In this document: in pieces, positions 4,259 to 61,473 of the stretch | How the letters are laid out: each line of letters opens with the position of its first letter | Position numbering within the stretch: the stretch's first letter is position 1 | Assembly: GCA_009693115.1 (NCBI GenBank) | Contig: SHXW01000001.1 | Location: forward strand, 62,001 to 126,000 | Source: Dehalococcoidia bacterium | GTDB taxonomy: Bacteria > Chloroflexota > Dehalococcoidia > Lucifugimonadales > Lucifugimonadaceae | Direction of reading: 5' to 3' | DNA: 64,000 nucleotides | The notes under the pieces: model-generated | The model's database searches: none | What the model was told of the DNA's origin: nothing | Seen by the model: only the letters and a program-made list of their open reading frames with translations | Position numbers and translations under genes: made by a program

Positions 4259-5452
4259 CTAACTCCTGTCCAGCAGAGCGGCCACGCCCGGCAGGACCTT
4301 GCCCTCTAGGAACTCCAGCGACGCTCCGCCGCCGGTCGAAACGTGCGTGAAACGGTCGCGCAGGCCCATCCGCTCCACGACCTCAGCGGTCGAGCCGCCA
4401 CCGACAACCGTCGTGGCAGCCCGGTTCGCGGCCACGGCCTGCGCTACCGCCTTCGTGCCTTCGGCGAACTGCGGCCACTCGAAGACGCCCATCGGCCCGT
4501 TCCAGATTACAGCCCGTGATCTTGCGATCTCCGCCGCGTAGGCCTTGCGCGCCTGCGGGCCGATGTCGAGTATCAGCGCATCCGCGGGCACGGCAGACGC
4601 GGCGACGGTCTGCGCCTTCGCATCCGCCGAGAACACCGTCGCAACCAGCACGTCTGCTGGCAGCAGCACGGCAGGCTTCGACGCTGCCAGCAGCCGCTCT
4701 GCGGCTTCAACCTCTGCGGGCGTCACGTCCGTCTTGCCGCTGCCCATCCCTTTTGCCTTGAAGAACGCCGCCACCATTCCTCCGCCTATCAACAGTGCGT
4801 CCATGCGAGGCGCGATGTGCGTCAGCACTTGTATCTTGTCCGCCACCTTCGCTCCGCCCACGATCGCGATCGCCGGGCGGGCCGACGCATTCAGCGCTGC
4901 GCTGAGCATTTCGATCTCTCGCGCCATCAGCAGGCCTGCGACCGCAGGCAGGCGATTCGCCACGCCCACGACCGACGCGTGCGCGCGGTGCGCGGCGGCG
5001 AATGCATCGTCCACATAAATATCCGCGAGCGAAGCCAGTGATGCCGCGAAGACGTCGTCGTTCTTCTCTTCGCCGGGGTCGAAGCGCAGGTTTTCCAGCA
5101 ACGCGACCTGTCCCGCCTTCATCGCCGTTGCCACCCTCGCAGGCTGCGGGCCAGCCGGGCCTCCGGCGTCAAGCACTTCCGCTCCGAGGAGTTCGCCGAG
5201 CCGCCGCCGCATGGGTGTCAGACGTTCCTTGTCAACCACCTTGCCGCCTGGGCGGCCAAAGTGGGAGCAGGCGATCACCGCTGCCCCCTGTTCTCGCAGG
5301 TAGTTGATCGTGGGGAGCGATAGGCGGATGCGTGAGTCGTCTGTGATCTCGCCTGCCTCATTCACAGGCACGTTGAAGTCAACGCGCACCAGCACGCGCT
5401 TCCCGCGCATGTCCACGTCTTTGATTGTCTTCTTGGGAACGATCTCAGTAAT
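4259..5452 (-). CDS. pgk: Phosphoglycerate kinase, possible ATT start
   Basis: Transfers phosphate between 1,3-bisphosphoglycerate and ADP in glycolysis. The protein shows RVDFNVP near the N-terminus, SHFGRPGG, the GGAKVADKI nucleotide region, and a C-terminal GGGSTAEVVERMG glycine-rich loop. In-frame GTG (5416) and ATG (5410) starts would cut off the family-conserved residues KKTIKDVD that are encoded just upstream. No ATG, GTG or TTG precedes those residues, but an ATT at 5452 follows GAGGGAGA at a good spacing and gives a normal 397-residue length. This upstream segment belongs to a dispersed repeat also found at 11533-11600. The start is therefore uncertain; the gene call is firm. It precedes tpiA. 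Confidence 0.93.
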   Translation of the reverse strand: MTEIVPKKTIKDVDMRGKRVLVRVDFNVPVNEAGEITDDSRIRLSLPTINYLREQGAAVIACSHFGRPGGKVVDKERLTPMRRRLGELLGAEVLDAGGPAGPQPARVATAMKAGQVALLENLRFDPGEEKNDDVFAASLASLADIYVDDAFAAAHRAHASVVGVANRLPAVAGLLMAREIEMLSAALNASARPAIAIVGGAKVADKIQVLTHIAPRMDALLIGGGMVAAFFKAKGMGSGKTDVTPAEVEAAERLLAASKPAVLLPADVLVATVFSADAKAQTVAASAVPADALILDIGPQARKAYAAEIARSRAVIWNGPMGVFEWPQFAEGTKAVAQAVAANRAATTVVGGGSTAEVVERMGLRDRFTHVSTGGGASLEFLEGKVLPGVAALLDRS

Positions 5453-5500
5453 GGCGGAGACTTCTCCCTCACACCGGCCCTCTCCAGATCAGAGAGGGGA
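5440..5500 (-). repeat. Hairpin repeat copy at the pgk start
   Basis: On the plus strand CCCTCTCC (5478-5485) pairs with GAGAGGG(G) (5492-5499). Read on the minus strand the hairpin is followed by GTGTGAGGGAGAAGTCTCC and then GCCATTACTGAGAT, which runs into the 5' end of pgk. The same hairpin-plus-tail order occurs at 11533-11600. Confidence 0.7.
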
Positions 5501-6533: not shown

Positions 6534-6655
6534 TACTGGCAGGCCGGGCATCTCCAAAGCCAGGGTCCCCTTCATGGCACGGGGCAGGACACGCAACACC
6601 CGTGTACGGCGAATAGCGGGCCAGAGATCACAGATTCAGGGCAGCGACTAAGAGA

Positions 6656-7177
6656 CTATCTCAATAACCCCAGCCGCCAGCACCGCCTGTACCAGATGAG
6701 CATGCAGTCCAGCTGGATAAGGTCGAGGTAGTTGCGGGCTTTCTTGTCGAAGCGAACCAGGAGAGCGCGGCACTTTGAGAGCCAGCCTATCGTCCGCTCC
6801 ACTACCCACCTGCGAGCAGGGAACCTCTTCTCTCCATGCTCGTCGAGCTTTCCCTCGCCTATTCTCCTTATGTGCGGGATGTAGCCGTTGAAGAGCGCCT
6901 CCAACTCTCCTTCGGCGTTGTCATAGCCTTTGTCCAGACACAGGTTCTGCACGGTGCCCTCTGGACGTTTGACGACCACAGCCTCGATCGTGGCTCGCAA
7001 GAGCTTGAAGTCATTCACGTTCGCCCCGGCTACCACGACGCTCAGCGGCCCGCCGTCGCCATCAACGAGGATGCTCTTCTTGCTCCCAGCTTTGGCTCTG
7101 TCCGTCGGGTTCGGACCGATGAGGTCCCCCCCGTGCGGGCCTTGCCCATGACGCCGTCCACTGCCTGCCATTCCCAA
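6656..7177 (-). CDS. IS5-family transposase, C-terminal frame (OrfB, reached by -1 frameshift)
   Basis: Carries the second half of the DDE transposase: GPNPTDRAKAGSKKSI, the second catalytic aspartate in VVAGANVNDFKLL, the DKGYDNAE segment, and the third acidic residue in RRWVVERTIGW followed by the RxxxLxxRFDK pattern. It has no convincing start of its own. The frame is -1 relative to the upstream frame, and the first residues homologous to the family begin right after the G7 tract (7126-7132), so it is probably expressed as a fusion. Confidence 0.9.
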   Translation of the reverse strand: MGMAGSGRRHGQGPHGGDLIGPNPTDRAKAGSKKSILVDGDGGPLSVVVAGANVNDFKLLRATIEAVVVKRPEGTVQNLCLDKGYDNAEGELEALFNGYIPHIRRIGEGKLDEHGEKRFPARRWVVERTIGWLSKCRALLVRFDKKARNYLDLIQLDCMLIWYRRCWRLGLLR

Positions 7178-7488
7178 TGCACGGCGCCAAGATCGTCGCA
7201 GCGCTCAATGAGCAGCGCCCAGACCCTCTCGAAAACGCCTCTGTTCACCCACCGCTGGAACGTCCGGTGTACTGACGAGTCGTCGCCAAACTCCCTGGGC
7301 AGGTGGTTCCAGTGGCAGCTTGTGCGCATGCGGAAGATGATCCCGTTCAGAGCGCGCCGCGGGTCTATCCTGGGCCGGCCATGTCTTCCATTTGGATCAG
7401 GGTCAACCTCGTCGAGCACCCTCTTGACCTCCGCCCACAAGTCGTCCGGGACCTCCCAGATCGTGGCCAGTTCATCTCGCTTGTCCAT
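7042..7488 (-). CDS. IS5-family transposase, N-terminal frame (OrfA)
   Basis: N-terminal DNA-binding part of the transposase. GRPRIDPRRALNGIIFRMRT and WNHLPREFGDDSSVHRTFQRW are typical of the DUF4096-type domain of this IS group, and the first catalytic aspartate is in WQAVDGVMGKA. Homology to the family ends at RTGG, exactly at seven consecutive G residues (minus strand, 7132-7126); beyond this point the frame continues with unconserved residues to a stop at 7042. A -1 slip there restores the reading RTGG-DLIGPNPTD. Confidence 0.9.
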   Translation of the reverse strand: MDKRDELATIWEVPDDLWAEVKRVLDEVDPDPNGRHGRPRIDPRRALNGIIFRMRTSCHWNHLPREFGDDSSVHRTFQRWVNRGVFERVWALLIERCDDLGAVHWEWQAVDGVMGKARTGGTSSVRTRRTEPKLGARRASSLMATAGR

Positions 7489-7664
7489 GTGCAGCCTCCT
7501 TGCATGGAAGCCACACTCGGGTTCCCCGCTCTACGCCGCCAAGAGGTTCCTCAACGGGTTATTGAGATAGTCTCTAAACCCTCGCTCTCGTGCCCTCTCC
7601 CGACTGGGCGACGGGATTCCAAGGAATGGTCTCGCAGATTACCAAATGGTGGCCATCAGCGGCC

Positions 7665-10118: not shown

Positions 10119-10182
10119 GGCTTCGCCTCTTTTCGTTTACTCTTTTCCTTCTCGGAGATTTGAACCTGAGATCCGGATGATG

Positions 10183-10227
10183 GCGAGACTTCTCTCTCAC
10201 CCTGACCCTCTCCCGCTGGGAGAGGGG
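10183..10227. repeat. Hairpin repeat copy between guaA and purD
   Basis: CCCTCTCCC (10206-10214) and GGGAGAGGG (10218-10226) form a perfect 9-bp stem with a three-base loop, preceded by ACTTCTCTCTCACCCTGA. Read on the minus strand the tail is GTGAGAGAGAAGTCTCGCC, matching the copies at pgk and after purD. It may also act as a terminator for guaA. Confidence 0.75.
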
Positions 10228-10265
10228 ATCGCGTTCCTTGCCTGAAAAGACAGGCAGATGACACT

Positions 10266-11567
10266 GTGAAAATCCTTCTCGTAGGCTCAGGCGGTCGCGA
10301 GCACGCCATCGCATGGAAGCTCGCCCGGAGCCGCCATGTTCCCAATCTAATCATCGCCCCCGGCAACGCCGGCACGGCTGCGCTGGGCGAGAATGTCCCT
10401 GTCAAAGCGATGGACCTCCCCGGCATGGTGAAGCTGGCGAAAGCGCGCGGCGTCGATTTTGTCTTCGTAGCGCCGGACGACCCGCTGGCCGCGGGCATGG
10501 TTGACGAGATGCAGAAGGCCGGGATCATGGCGTTTGGCCCCACCGCCGCGGCTGCACGCATCGAATCGTCGAAGGTTTGGGCCAAGCAACTGATGATTCG
10601 CAACGGCATACCGACGGCTCGGGTGGACGTTTTCGACAACGCCTCCGCTGCCCTGTCGCACATAGAGCGCGCCCCGGAGGGATCGATCGTCATCAAGGTC
10701 GATGGCCTCGCACAGGGCAAAGGCGTCGTTGTGCCAGCCACGCGACAGGAAGCTGTCGCCGCGGTGCGCTCGATGATGGAGGAGCTTGTTTTCGGAAATG
10801 CGGGACGCAGAATCCTTGTCGAAGAGCGGATGAGCGGCCCAGAAGTCAGCGTCTTCGCTTTTGTCTGTGGCAGTTTCGTGTCCGACGAAATAGCGGCGTG
10901 CGACTATAAGCGCGTGAACGATGGCGACACCGGCCCCAACACAGGCGGCATGGGCGCCTACTCCCCGCCCGAGTTCTGGACGCCTGAGCTTGCTGCACGC
11001 GTCCGCCGGGAAGTCCTTGAACCTGTGGCACGGGCGATGGTCAAAGAGGGTTGTCCATTCAACGGCGTCCTATACGCGGGGCTGATGCTTACCAGCGAAG
11101 GCCCGAGGGTAGTTGAGTTCAACTGCCGTCTCGGCGACCCCGAGGCTCAGGTCATACTGCCCCGCCTGGAGTCCGACCTTGTGGATATTTGTCTGGCAAT
11201 GGCGAGCGGCACGCTTTCCAAGACAGCCGTTCGTTGGGGAGGTGACCCGCACGTCGGCGTCGTCCTCGCCTCAGGCGGATATCCCGGCAAATACCCGACG
11301 GGTTACCTGATTTCCGGGCTGGCGGAGGCTGCCAACGATGCCCTAATTTTCCACGCCGGGACGAAGATCGGCCCCGGCTCCGAAGTCCTGACAAATGGCG
11401 GACGTGTCGTGATGGCCGTCGGCTCAGGCAAGAGCGTCGCATCTGCGCGTGGCAGCGCCTACCGGTCAACCGCTAAGATCAAGTTTGAAGGCGCTCACTA
11501 CCGCATGGACATCGCGGCGCGGTCCGCGGCCAGTGGGTCCCACTCCCGTCAGGAGAGGGCAGTGTGA
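10266..11567 (+). CDS. purD: Phosphoribosylamine-glycine ligase (GAR synthetase)
   Basis: ATP-grasp enzyme joining phosphoribosylamine and glycine in purine synthesis. The N-terminus GSGGREHAIAWKLARS is diagnostic; the ATP-grasp centre has KVDGLAQGKGVVV and EERMSGPEVSVFAF, followed by NTGGMGAYSP and EFNCRLGDPEAQVILPRL. The C-terminal domain ends normally near FEGAHYRMDIA, and the last dozen residues (ending GSHSRQERAV) and the stop codon are encoded by a copy of the dispersed hairpin repeat. Confidence 0.97.
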   Translation: MKILLVGSGGREHAIAWKLARSRHVPNLIIAPGNAGTAALGENVPVKAMDLPGMVKLAKARGVDFVFVAPDDPLAAGMVDEMQKAGIMAFGPTAAAARIESSKVWAKQLMIRNGIPTARVDVFDNASAALSHIERAPEGSIVIKVDGLAQGKGVVVPATRQEAVAAVRSMMEELVFGNAGRRILVEERMSGPEVSVFAFVCGSFVSDEIAACDYKRVNDGDTGPNTGGMGAYSPPEFWTPELAARVRREVLEPVARAMVKEGCPFNGVLYAGLMLTSEGPRVVEFNCRLGDPEAQVILPRLESDLVDICLAMASGTLSKTAVRWGGDPHVGVVLASGGYPGKYPTGYLISGLAEAANDALIFHAGTKIGPGSEVLTNGGRVVMAVGSGKSVASARGSAYRSTAKIKFEGAHYRMDIAARSAASGSHSRQERAV

Positions 11568-11600
11568 GGGAGAAGCCTCCGCCATTACTGAGATAGTCTC
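11533..11600 (+). repeat. Hairpin repeat copy spanning the purD stop and the next gene start
   Basis: CCCACTCC-GTCA-GGAGAGGG is an imperfect hairpin and is followed by GTGTGAGGGAGAAGCCTCC and GCCATTACTGAGATAGTCTC. It matches the copy upstream of pgk for most of its length. The TGA of purD lies inside it. Its last 16 bases differ at one position from the terminal repeat of the insertion sequence at 6652-7574. Confidence 0.75.
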
Positions 11601-12270
11601 CAAACCCCGCCCTCTAACCGTCATCTGCGACTTCGATGACACCGCGGCTTCACAGAACGTTGCTCGCCTCCTCCTTGACCGCTTCGCAGAGGGCCGTGAC
11701 AAAAGGCACGTTGAAGATTTTCGCGCAGGGCGGATCACTTTCCGCGAGTATCAGGAGCGCAGTTTCAACGAGATTCATGTGCCGATTTCTGAGATGGAGG
11801 CCCACGTCCGGAATAACGCCTCCCTCCGGACAGGGTTTGCAGAAGCCGTCGCAGCGGCCCGGCAGGCCGGCGCTGGTTTCGCCATCGCATCCGCCGGTAT
11901 TGAGTTCTATATCCGTCCTCTGCTTGAACGTGAGGGCCACGGAGCGTTGCCCATCGTCGCTGTAAAGGCAACACAGGCTGCCCATGGTTCGGCTGACCCC
12001 ATCAGATACGATTACCCTGTCTCCCGCGAAGGCTGCGAGGGTGACTGGGCGGTCTGCAAGTGCAAGGTTGTCCAGAAGGCGCAGGGGGAGGGTGGAACCG
12101 TGATCTTCGTTGGCGACGGGATACGCTCCGACGCCTGCGCTGCTGGTAAGGCTGACAAGGTTTTCGCGCGAGCGAAGCTCCTCGAACATTGCACGACCAA
12201 CGGAATCAAGGCGACGCCATTTGATGACTTCCTTCCTCTTGCAGAGTTCTTGAGACAGTTCATTCGGTGA
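11584..12270 (+). CDS. HAD-superfamily phosphatase (MtnX/SerB-like)
   Basis: Contains HAD motif I as VICDFDDTAAS near the N-terminus, motif II around FAIASAGIEFYI, and motif III/IV as VIFVGDGIRSDACAAGKAD near residue 185. The pattern resembles MtnX-type 2-hydroxy-3-keto-5-methylthiopentenyl-1-phosphate phosphatases and phosphoserine phosphatases; the substrate is not clear. No ATG or TTG lies near the conserved start. An ATT at 11584 follows GAGGGAGAAG at a good distance, giving ITEIVSK, the same opening as pgk; the nearest standard alternative is a GTG at 11533 inside purD. It is probably co-transcribed with purD. Confidence 0.75.
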   Translation: MTEIVSKPRPLTVICDFDDTAASQNVARLLLDRFAEGRDKRHVEDFRAGRITFREYQERSFNEIHVPISEMEAHVRNNASLRTGFAEAVAAARQAGAGFAIASAGIEFYIRPLLEREGHGALPIVAVKATQAAHGSADPIRYDYPVSREGCEGDWAVCKCKVVQKAQGEGGTVIFVGDGIRSDACAAGKADKVFARAKLLEHCTTNGIKATPFDDFLPLAEFLRQFIR

Positions 12271-17262: not shown

Positions 17263-17302
17263 TGTGCCCCTCACCCTGACCCTCTCCCACTAGGAGGGGG
17301 GA
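17263..17302. repeat. Hairpin repeat copy between hisC and hisB
   Basis: TGCCCCTCACCCTGACCCTC followed by TCCCACTAGGAGGGGG is an imperfect copy of the family, between the hisC stop and the hisB start within the his operon. Confidence 0.65.
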
Positions 17303-17330
17303 TTCTTGGAAACTAACTGCGCCGCACTGC

Positions 17331-39023: not shown

Positions 39024-39806
39024 CTACTTTCTCCCGAACTGCTCCCGGAACTCGGTCACCCATTTCTTCACAGCGGTCGTGCCCAAGAATATTGGACTGG
39101 AAACGTTCATGAAGCGGTAGCCCTCGCCAATCCAGCGGCGGCAGTCTTCCGGATCCCCAAAGGTGCAGCCCAGCATCATGCCCGCCTTCTTGGCCTTCTT
39201 CGCGATGTCCAGCATGGCGTTCTCCACCTTAGGGTGGTGGATCTTGCCCGGCACGCCGAGCGAAGCAGACATGTCAGTAGGCCCGAAGAGCAGCACTTCG
39301 TAATTCTTCACCTTTAGCGTCTCGTCCAGTTTTTCCAGCGCCTCTGCACTTTCGATCTGGAGAATGAGCACAGTCTCGCTGTTGGCGGTCTTCAGGACCT
39401 CATCACCAGAAATGCCAAGGAATGTCGCGAAGAACGGGGCGATGCCGCGCTCGCCAATCGGCGGGTACTTGGCGTACTTCACCGCCTGACGCGCCTCCGC
39501 AGGGTTGTCCACCTGCGGCACCATTACGCCCACCGCTCCCACGTCATACGCCTTCTTGATGAGGGACGGGTCATTCCATGCGACACGAATAACTGGTGCT
39601 ATCCCTGCCTGTCTGGCCATCACGCACACTGTGCCTACGGATTCCGTGCCCCACGGTTCATGCTCGTGGTCAATCCAGACCCAGTCAACGCCGCACTGGT
39701 TGTAGATGGCGGCTGCGATGTGGGCCTCCTGCCCAAACAGGGCCGTGCCCAAGACCACATCATCTTTTGCGATTTTCTGCCTGATCGTGCTTGGATATGC
39801 GGGCAT
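39024..39806 (-). CDS. HpcH/HpaI aldolase (2-keto-3-deoxy acid aldolase type), copy 2
   Basis: Class II pyruvate aldolase of about 260 residues. DWVWIDHEHEPWG has the catalytic His, PVIRVAWND the substrate-binding Arg, LILQIESAEALE the metal Glu and LLFGPTDMSASLG the metal Asp. YPPIGERGIAPFFATFLG is the usual substrate loop. The family includes 2-keto-3-deoxy-L-rhamnonate and 4-hydroxy-2-oxoheptanedioate aldolases. It begins two bases after the stop of its tandem paralogue, so the two form an operon. Confidence 0.93.
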   Translation of the reverse strand: MPAYPSTIRQKIAKDDVVLGTALFGQEAHIAAAIYNQCGVDWVWIDHEHEPWGTESVGTVCVMARQAGIAPVIRVAWNDPSLIKKAYDVGAVGVMVPQVDNPAEARQAVKYAKYPPIGERGIAPFFATFLGISGDEVLKTANSETVLILQIESAEALEKLDETLKVKNYEVLLFGPTDMSASLGVPGKIHHPKVENAMLDIAKKAKKAGMMLGCTFGDPEDCRRWIGEGYRFMNVSSPIFLGTTAVKKWVTEFREQFGRK

Positions 39807-39808
39807 GG

Positions 39809-40654
39809 CTAACCCTTCCTCCCGGCCGCCGAGCGGGCCTTTGAGCCTGATGCAACCACGGCCTTTTTCGGCTTACCGAACTCTTCCCGCAGTTCGGTGA
39901 AAATCCGCTTCATCCCAACCGTCCCCTCCGCCAGCGTGCTAGACACATTCATCATCCGGTAGCCCTCGGCGATCCACTTGCGCGCCAACACAGGGTCATT
40001 CCACGTAGTCGAAAGGGCCTTCCCCCTACCCTGCTTCTTCATCTTCTGTGCCACATCCACCATGATGTTCTCGACCCTGGGATGTGACATTTTCCCCGGT
40101 ATCCCGAGCGACGCCGAAAGGTCAGCCGGGCCGACGAGCAGCACCTCGAAGTCCTTCAGTTTCAACGTCTCGTCGATCCGCTCGTACGCCTCCACGCTTT
40201 CCATCTGGATGATGAGCACAGTCTCGTTGTTGGCGTTCTCAAGCACTTCGTCCCCGGTCAGGCCCATGTAGGTGGCGAAGAACGGTGCGATGCCGCGCTC
40301 GCCGATCGGCGGGTACTTGGCGTAGCGGATGGCGTCCGCCGCCTCCTTCTCGTTGTCCACCTGCGGCACCATCACACCCACGGCGCCCACGTCGTATGCC
40401 TTTTTGATTTGCGCCGGGTCGTTCCATGCGACGCGGATTACCGGCGCCACACCCATCTGCCGTCCCATAACTGCAATGGTGCCTATCGACTCCGTGCCCC
40501 ATGGCGAGTGTTCCTGGTCTATCCAGACCCAGTCAGGCCCTGTCTGGTAGACCGCCGCGGCGATGTGTGGCATCCGCGTATACATCGAGGCACTCAGGAG
40601 CAGGTCATTGCTCGCGATGCGGCCTCGTATCGTGCTCGGGTAAGCGTTTGGCAT
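39809..40654 (-). CDS. HpcH/HpaI aldolase, copy 3 (tandem paralogue)
   Basis: Closely related to the downstream gene: WIDQEHSPWGTES, PVIRVAWNDPAQIKKAYDVG, VLIIQMESVEAYE and LLVGPADLSASLG keep the catalytic His, Arg, Glu and Asp. The C-terminus has an added Lys/Ala-rich tail (KPKKAVVASGSKARSAAGRK). The start at 40654 has CGGAG six bases upstream and aligns with the paralogue; a longer frame to 40882 is not conserved. The two copies differ around the first active-site loop (DHEHEPW versus DQEHSPW), hinting at different substrates. Confidence 0.92.
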   Translation of the reverse strand: MPNAYPSTIRGRIASNDLLLSASMYTRMPHIAAAVYQTGPDWVWIDQEHSPWGTESIGTIAVMGRQMGVAPVIRVAWNDPAQIKKAYDVGAVGVMVPQVDNEKEAADAIRYAKYPPIGERGIAPFFATYMGLTGDEVLENANNETVLIIQMESVEAYERIDETLKLKDFEVLLVGPADLSASLGIPGKMSHPRVENIMVDVAQKMKKQGRGKALSTTWNDPVLARKWIAEGYRMMNVSSTLAEGTVGMKRIFTELREEFGKPKKAVVASGSKARSAAGRKG

Positions 40655-59126: not shown

Positions 59127-60266
59127 TTGAAAATCACGGACATACGCACCATCCACGCATACGACGGCAGCCGCAATAACCTCTTCCTTCAAGTCTTTAC
59201 CGACGAGGGCATCACCGGCGTCGGTGAGCCCTACTCGATTGGGCCGGACGAGGGCATCATCGGCGTCATCGAAAACATGAAACCGTGGTTCATCGGACAG
59301 GATCCCGGACGCATCGAATGGCTCCTGCGGCGTGCCCGGAACACCATGCGTTTCCCCCTGGGGCAGGTCGCGTGGTCTGCCCTGTCCGGCCTGGACCTCG
59401 CCCTCTGGGACATCATGGGCAAGGCAGCAGGCGTCCCCGTCTACAAGCTCCTTGGCGGCCCTACACGCGATAGAGTCCGCGTCTACCACGCCATCTACGA
59501 TCCAGACCCCATCAGACTTGGCGAAAATGCACAGGCCCTCCTTGCCGAGGGTTACACCGCCTTCAAGACCACCCCCTTCCCGCCCGGCTACCGCACCATG
59601 CCCTGGCAGGCCGTCGTACGCGAGTCGGCCAAGCGTATGGAGACGCTCCGAATAGCAGTGGGCGACGGCCCTGATATCGGCATAGACATCCACACTGTAA
59701 TCAGGGAGCCGTCTAAGGCAGTCGAACTTGTTAAGGCTCTCGTCCAGTACAGGCTCATGTTCGTCGAAGAGCCTGCCGGGGCAGAGTTCATCGCAACCAC
59801 CGCCCGCCTGCGCCGCGAGTTCCGCGTCGCGCTCGCCACAGGCGAGAACCTGTACGGCGCGGCACGTTACGCCGAACTCATGGACGCCGATGCGGTGGAC
59901 ATCATCCAGCCGGATGTGCTGTGCTGCGGTGGCCTGCTCGAAGCGAAGAAGATTGCCGCCATCGCCGAGGCCCACTATGTCACTGTCGCGCCGCACAACC
60001 CCCTCGGCCTCATCTCGACTGCCGCCTCTGTCCATTTCGCAGCCAGCATCAACAATTTCCTGATCCTTGAGTGGCACGGCGATGACAAGCGCCAGAAGCA
60101 GGAGTTTGTCACCCCAATGTGGAAGCCCGTGAACGGATATTTCGAGCTGCCACAGTCGCCTGGGCTCGGCATCGAATTGAACTTGGACGCCATAAACAAA
60201 CACCCTGCGAAGCATTGGAACCGCGGCTTTCCGGTCGGCCCTGACGGCGCCCCCGGCAACATTTGA
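59127..60266 (+). CDS. Galactonate-dehydratase-like enolase-superfamily enzyme, copy 1
   Basis: Sugar-acid dehydratase of the GalD/mannonate-dehydratase branch of the mandelate-racemase subgroup. Metal and catalytic residues match: Asp and His in GIDIHTVIREP, Glu in FVEEPAG, Glu in ATGENLYGA, His in VAPHNPLGL and Glu in LILEWHGDD. FPLGQVAWSALSGLDLALWDIMG is the usual capping-barrel junction. TTG 59127 (MKITDIRTIHAYDG) with GAGAGG six bases upstream aligns with the paralogue; an ATG at 59100 is possible. Which aldonate is used cannot be read from sequence. First of a tandem pair. Confidence 0.9.
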   Translation: MKITDIRTIHAYDGSRNNLFLQVFTDEGITGVGEPYSIGPDEGIIGVIENMKPWFIGQDPGRIEWLLRRARNTMRFPLGQVAWSALSGLDLALWDIMGKAAGVPVYKLLGGPTRDRVRVYHAIYDPDPIRLGENAQALLAEGYTAFKTTPFPPGYRTMPWQAVVRESAKRMETLRIAVGDGPDIGIDIHTVIREPSKAVELVKALVQYRLMFVEEPAGAEFIATTARLRREFRVALATGENLYGAARYAELMDADAVDIIQPDVLCCGGLLEAKKIAAIAEAHYVTVAPHNPLGLISTAASVHFAASINNFLILEWHGDDKRQKQEFVTPMWKPVNGYFELPQSPGLGIELNLDAINKHPAKHWNRGFPVGPDGAPGNI

Positions 60267-60330: not shown

Positions 60331-61473
60331 ATGAAAATCACCCGCATCGAGACCCTCATCGCGGACAACGGCAACAACAATATCGTCTACGTCCGCACGC
60401 ACACTGACGCCGGAATTCACGGGGTCGGCGAAGCCTACCGGGTCGGTCCAGACAGGGCCACCGCCGAATGGGTCTCTTACTTCTCAGAGCAGCTTGCCGG
60501 CCGCGACCCGACCGAGATCGAGCGCAACTGGGCCCTCTGCTACCAGGGCACGCGCTTCCCTCTCGGGTCGTCCGCGCTCGCCGCCCTTTCCGGCATCGAC
60601 CAGTCCCTCTGGGACATCGCTGGCAAGGCCGTCAACATGCCCGTCTACGAACTCCTCGGCGGGCGCGTCCGGGATCGCCTCCGCGCCTACCACGGTGTCC
60701 ATGCAGACTCGCCCCAGAAGCTGGCCGAGGCCGGGCGGAAACTTGTTCAAGGCGATGGCTTCACCGCGCTTAAAACCTCTCCCCTACCCGAAAACTGGCG
60801 CGATCTCACCTGGAACCAGGCGGTGGATGGCGGCAAGAGATTCATTGAAGCCCTGCGCCGGGCCGTCGGAGACGACATAGATATCGGCCTTGACGCCCAC
60901 GCCGCCGTCTGGGAACCGGCACGCGCTCTCGAACTCTCTGACGCCCTTGTAGAGTTCAAGCCGTTTTTCATGGAAGAGCCGTTGCGGATGGAAAACCGCC
61001 GCGAAATGGGCCTGCTCCGCCGGAAGATGCCATTCGCCCTTGCTACCGGTGAGTGCCTCTACACAAAATTCGAACTAGGCGAACTCATCCGCGAGGAGGC
61101 CGTGGACATCCTCCAACCTGACGTCTGTATCGTCGGCGGCATGACCGAACTGCGGAAGATCGCCTTCAACGCGGAGGCGCACGACCTAACTGTCGCGCCG
61201 CACAACCCACTAGGCCCGCTGGCTACTGTGGTGAACCTGCACTTCGACGCTGCCACGACGAACTTCCTCATTCAGGAGTACCGCACGCCATCCGAGAGTG
61301 AGGCAGCGACCGTAGTGAAGTCGCCGAAGCCCGTGGACGGTTACTTCCCCCTGCCCGATGGCCCCGGCTGGGGCGTGGACATCGTCGACTCCGCCGTCGA
61401 GGCCCGTCCGATGAAGCGCAACTGGCACCGCGGCGACCGCACGTACCCCGACGGGGCAATCGCGTACATCTGA
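60331..61473 (+). CDS. Galactonate-dehydratase-like enolase-superfamily enzyme, copy 2
   Basis: Paralogue of the preceding gene, 380 residues. It retains Asp/His in LDAHAAVWEP, Glu in FMEEPLRM, Glu in ATGECLYTK, His in VAPHNPLGP and Glu in LIQEYRTP. Differences lie in the N-terminal capping domain, which sets substrate choice in this superfamily. GAGAGGA four bases before the ATG. The 64-base gap to the first copy suggests one transcript. Confidence 0.92.
   Translation: MKITRIETLIADNGNNNIVYVRTHTDAGIHGVGEAYRVGPDRATAEWVSYFSEQLAGRDPTEIERNWALCYQGTRFPLGSSALAALSGIDQSLWDIAGKAVNMPVYELLGGRVRDRLRAYHGVHADSPQKLAEAGRKLVQGDGFTALKTSPLPENWRDLTWNQAVDGGKRFIEALRRAVGDDIDIGLDAHAAVWEPARALELSDALVEFKPFFMEEPLRMENRREMGLLRRKMPFALATGECLYTKFELGELIREEAVDILQPDVCIVGGMTELRKIAFNAEAHDLTVAPHNPLGPLATVVNLHFDAATTNFLIQEYRTPSESEAATVVKSPKPVDGYFPLPDGPGWGVDIVDSAVEARPMKRNWHRGDRTYPDGAIAYI

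Follow-up and report, generated by a model that had tools for sequence, protein, structure and literature searches.

The purD-phosphatase junction

The window, a stretch of 64,000 nucleotides from an uncultured member of the Chloroflexota (Dehalococcoidia/SAR202-like; genome bin of 2.02 Mb), carries purD on the plus strand (10266-11567), with a GTG start and a TGA stop codon at 11565-11567. It is followed on the same strand by the gene of an MtnX-like HAD-IB phosphatase, and the two genes meet in a copy of a repeat (11535-11604, plus strand) that comprises a degenerate hairpin, GTGAGGGAGAAG, CCTCCGCC, and an end resembling the terminal repeat of an insertion sequence. As the initial annotation had proposed, the repeat encodes the last ~10 codons of PurD (GSHSRQERAV) together with the TGA; the C-terminus of the protein reads ...DIAARSAASGSHSRQERAV. 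Because the match to TIGR00877 stops at residue 420 of 433, the repeat-coded end is an extension outside the conserved domain.

From the repeat and the end of purD up to the HAD domain, the phosphatase frame contains neither ATG nor TTG. The start candidates in this frame are GTG 11449, TTG 11485, and GTG 11533, all of which lie within purD, and ATT 11584. Initiation at the ATT would yield a protein of 228 amino acids (11584-12270, plus strand), initiation at GTG 11533 one of 245 amino acids, whose gene (11533-12270, plus strand) overlaps purD by 35 nt. A possible Shine-Dalgarno sequence, GGAG (11569-11572, plus strand), precedes the ATT by 11 nt and can pair with a downstream CTCC.

Copies and ends of the repeat family

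Within the bin, the best non-self match of positions 11557-11603 is a copy on the minus strand at the start of pgk (5433-5479; 87% identity over 47 nt, E = 1.2e-12), so that the similarity, as already claimed from the first inspection, is not due to chance. The complete pgk copy (5433-5500, minus strand) has a tail that is in frame with the gene (ITEIVPK/KTIKDVDMRGKR). The window also contains a hairpin with a partial tail in the intergenic region upstream of purD (10166-10229, minus strand) and a copy consisting only of the hairpin (17270-17303, minus strand). Genome-wide, exact hairpins of the form CCCTCTCC-n-GGAGAGGG occur 52 times, compared with a single occurrence in a reversed control. 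A subset of them bears a 42-nt tail with the consensus GGTGAGGGAGAAGTCTCCGCCATTATTGAGATNGTTTC(C/T)AAG, of which a profile search recovered ~19 clear copies and additional fragments. The element is thus multicopy, ~70 nt long, and without a transposase; a search of 249 other genomes of the order, allowing up to three mismatches, gave no match to its tail. According to a rough codon-usage gene call, made only around the repeat copies, the tail copies are located between genes or at gene edges, and some further copies touch gene ends. Copy L114 (G000:C21:17446-17486, minus strand) lies 21 nt ahead of a gene resembling that of a ribosome hibernation factor; this gene has retained a GTG start of its own, which is not in the frame of the tail.

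The end of the tail is related to an insertion sequence of the IS5 family that resides in the same window (6652-7574, minus strand). The terminal inverted repeats of this element (GAGACTATCTCAATAACCC) are perfect over 19 bp; TAA flanks them, and the domains of the element are PF13340 and PF01609. It carries two overlapping transposase ORFs on the minus strand (7488-7042 and 7177-6656), is present in a single copy in the bin, and adjoins another hairpin at ~7580-7620. The last 17 bases of the tail at purD, ATTACTGAGATAGTCTC (11584-11600, plus strand), which begin with the proposed AUU codon, match the terminal inverted repeat at 15 of 17 positions, a similarity that goes beyond the initial annotation. 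The corresponding value is 12/17 for the pgk copy and 9-15/17 for nearly all copies, whereas only 0.02% of random 17-mers from the window reach 11/17.

Left inverted terminal repeats were sought at every tail copy and are convincing only in copy L120 (G000:C38:14383-14419, plus strand); they are absent at purD and pgk. Not only the right but also the left end of L120 (TAA/GTGACTATCTCAA) is IS-like, and the copy is flanked by TAA and CAA, which makes it the best candidate for a two-ended miniature inverted-repeat transposable element (MITE). In many copies, the right end is followed by YAA; the purD copy has no clean target duplication. That most copies show neither a recognizable left terminal repeat nor a target duplication counts against a MITE-like origin. 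Given the match between the tail end and the terminal repeat of the resident insertion sequence, and the additional IS-like left end of L120, the family is read, from its sequence features, as IS-derived and MITE-like, built on a REP-like hairpin, with most copies too worn to show both ends.

MITEs are non-autonomous elements with the terminal repeats of insertion sequences, and MITE ORFs fused in frame to genes of the host have been described (PMC10969869). The present family resembles them in that it is short, dispersed, and mostly intergenic and has an end in common with a resident IS5-family element, but differs in its REP-like hairpin core, in a left terminal repeat that is recognizable only in L120, and in that several copies appear to supply the start region of genes. 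With REP/REPIN elements it shares the many short, dispersed, intergenic palindromes (CCCTCTCCC-n-GGGAGAGGG), so abundant relative to the reversed control, but not the additional 42-nt tail with an IS-type terminal repeat at its end. Like Rickettsia palindromic elements (RPEs), the repeats are translated in frame as parts of unrelated proteins; RPEs, however, are located inside genes, whereas the repeat described here sits at gene edges and supplies a stop or a start. Insertions within the body of an ORF, as known for RPEs, are absent among the copies, which are fused to gene starts or lie at gene ends and between genes.

The junction in relatives and in-frame fusions at other genes

The relatives available for comparison are distant: none of the 60 genomes searched belongs to the same genus, and the named matches among the genome contigs are bins of Dehalococcoidia, SAR202, and Chloroflexi. 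An alignment-based search of these contigs recovered 24 relatives, all with ~53% identity or less, whereas a single-sequence search found none. Among 26 loci of relatives in which purD immediately precedes the phosphatase, some of which represent the same genome in two collections, 20 have a 4-nt overlap of stop and start codon (ATGA, GTGA, or TTGA). In these relatives, PurD extends a few residues beyond DIA-RA, and the phosphatases that start in the overlap begin ~12-15 residues before CDFDD. A frameshift fusion of PurD and phosphatase was set aside; the relatives keep separate genes.

Since the overlap is so common and the tail has no match in the other genomes of the order searched, stop-start coupling at this junction is ancestral, and the element replaced an older coupled junction rather than creating one. 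The initial interpretation of the repeat as a stop-start junction is therefore correct in that the repeat carries the purD stop codon, but not in that the arrangement itself would be owed to the repeat.

The tail runs in one and the same frame into at least five genes on the same strand, which had also escaped the initial annotation; in the remaining copies, the tail is not continued by coding sequence. The fused genes encode Pgk (ITEIVPK/KTIKDVD), the MtnX-like phosphatase (ITEIVSK/PRPLTVICDFDD), the phosphoglycerate mutase GpmI (ITEMISK/GSGRALLIVLDG), an ABC substrate-binding lipoprotein (ISEIVSR/LQNRR), and a HAD hydrolase (INEIVSK/YSVIVMDVDG). The chance of all five fusions sharing one frame is 1/81, which is explained by selection for an intact gene without any special design. 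The fused tails vary most at third codon positions (p = 0.016), but the non-fused copies lean in the same direction (p = 0.05); codon-position bias is too weak to decide whether the tails are translated and was dropped as proof of translation. In copy L115 (G000:C8:50094-50135, minus strand), the only ATG near the start of the mutase gene is in the tail (GAG ATG ATT TCC AAA). In copy L118 (G000:C37:9741-9780, plus strand), the lipoprotein gene appears to begin at a GTG of the tail; a terminator-like hairpin lies immediately upstream.

Start codons at the fused genes

On balance, the evidence points to a MITE-like copy that replaced the ancestral overlap, supplies the stop codon of purD, and probably allows a restart at AUU 11584. 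On this reading, the lineage has a small element without coding capacity that combines a REP-like hairpin with a GGGTGAGGGAGAAGTCTCC segment and whose end shares ancestry with the terminal inverted repeat of the IS5-family element in the window; the repeat would be one of its degenerate copies. Having come to lie at the purD-phosphatase junction, presumably by insertion, it would have displaced the 4-nt overlap and with it the original start, given PurD its tail of ~10 residues and its TGA, and provided the first codons of the phosphatase (ITEIVSK) with its end. Ribosomes would terminate at TGA 11565 and reinitiate 16 nt further on at AUU 11584, aided by GGGAG. Termination-reinitiation at overlapping or closely spaced genes is established (PMC6728339).

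The ATT proposed as the start in the initial annotation is a serious candidate: it lies 14 residues before CDFDD and thus agrees with the N-terminus of the relatives, and the same fit of native length is found for pgk (4259-5452, minus strand), with ATT 5452 as the proposed start. In the relatives of Pgk, a few residues precede the conserved KKTI-D-D motif; in the window, this motif directly follows the tail. Between an in-frame TGA in the hairpin loop and the conserved KKTIKDVD with GTG 5416, ATG, GTG, and TTG are all absent, and GTG 5416, the first standard in-frame start, lies inside the conserved N-terminus. Because no ATG, GTG, or TTG precedes this N-terminus, the pgk copy speaks independently for a near-cognate start within the repeat. 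Initiation at AUU has been documented for pcnB and infC of Escherichia coli and cvfC1 of Staphylococcus aureus (PMC13009471, PMC2268962), which resemble the proposed case in their non-AUG (AUN) initiation; there, however, they are demonstrated starts of host genes, whereas the candidate AUU at purD comes from a repeat element. The spacing of 11 nt between GGAG and ATT is long and counts against AUU 11584. In E. coli and S. aureus, AUU starts give reduced yields (PMC13009471), and weak initiation would be unexpected for a gene as central as pgk. A small hairpin predicted to hide the GGAG was drawn in all four folded copies, not clearly better than in shuffled sequences.

The main alternative, though a less likely one, is initiation at GTG 11533 inside purD, with the repeat as an in-frame insertion that lengthens the N-terminus by ~17 residues (MGPTPVRRGQCEGEASA-ITEIVSK...). 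This GTG is a standard start whose reading frame is that of the phosphatase and stays open across the repeat, but it has no Shine-Dalgarno-like sequence upstream. It is located 31 residues before CDFDD, which would make the protein at least ~16 residues longer in this region than the overlap-starting, purD-linked relatives, and a corresponding solution is impossible at pgk because of the in-frame TGA in the hairpin loop.

Judged less probable still is that the tail provides only an open frame and a ribosome-binding context, with near-cognate or mixed starts differing from gene to gene: AUA 11593 for the phosphatase, AUC for pgk, AUG for gpmI, GUG for the ABC binding protein, and UUG for the HAD gene. 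The column after GAGAT indeed varies freely, with a G (ATG) in gpmI, and the GTG at the next codon of L118 yields a normal-looking lipoprotein signal peptide, but AUA 11593 would be 20 nt away from GGAG. Very improbable is a phosphatase that is poorly or not translated after the insertion and heading for decay: an ordinary start is missing at the expected place, but the body of the gene is intact and its motifs are conserved with respect to relatives.

It is doubtful that the preferred restart at AUU 11584 can be extended to a portable, IS-derived translation-start cassette that has taken over the starts of pgk and at least four other genes. Such a cassette would offer the terminal repeat in one fixed frame, AUU (or AUC) as initiator, and GGGAG upstream, and would place these genes under near-cognate (IF3-sensitive) initiation. 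Because standard codons are present elsewhere in the tail at gpmI (ATG) and at the ABC binding protein (GTG), the fused genes need not share a single AUU start.

The repeat is real, lineage-specific, and apparently IS-derived, and carries the stop and probably also the start at the junction. In-frame MITE fusions being already known, what is unusual is that gene starts have been taken over repeatedly, perhaps with AUU. If correct, the effects of a small mobile repeat can go beyond disrupting or decorating genes: by bringing along a stop codon, a ribosome-binding context, and an in-frame start, it can replace a conserved coupled junction; weak AUN starts could in this way be imposed on housekeeping genes. 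Ordinary gene callers would then misplace the starts, in pgk to GTG 5416 and in the phosphatase to a site inside purD.

Elsewhere in the window, two pairs of neighbouring stretches with 71-76% DNA identity (39181-39700 and 40029-40548; 59345-60009 and 60549-61216) are probably tandem gene duplications.
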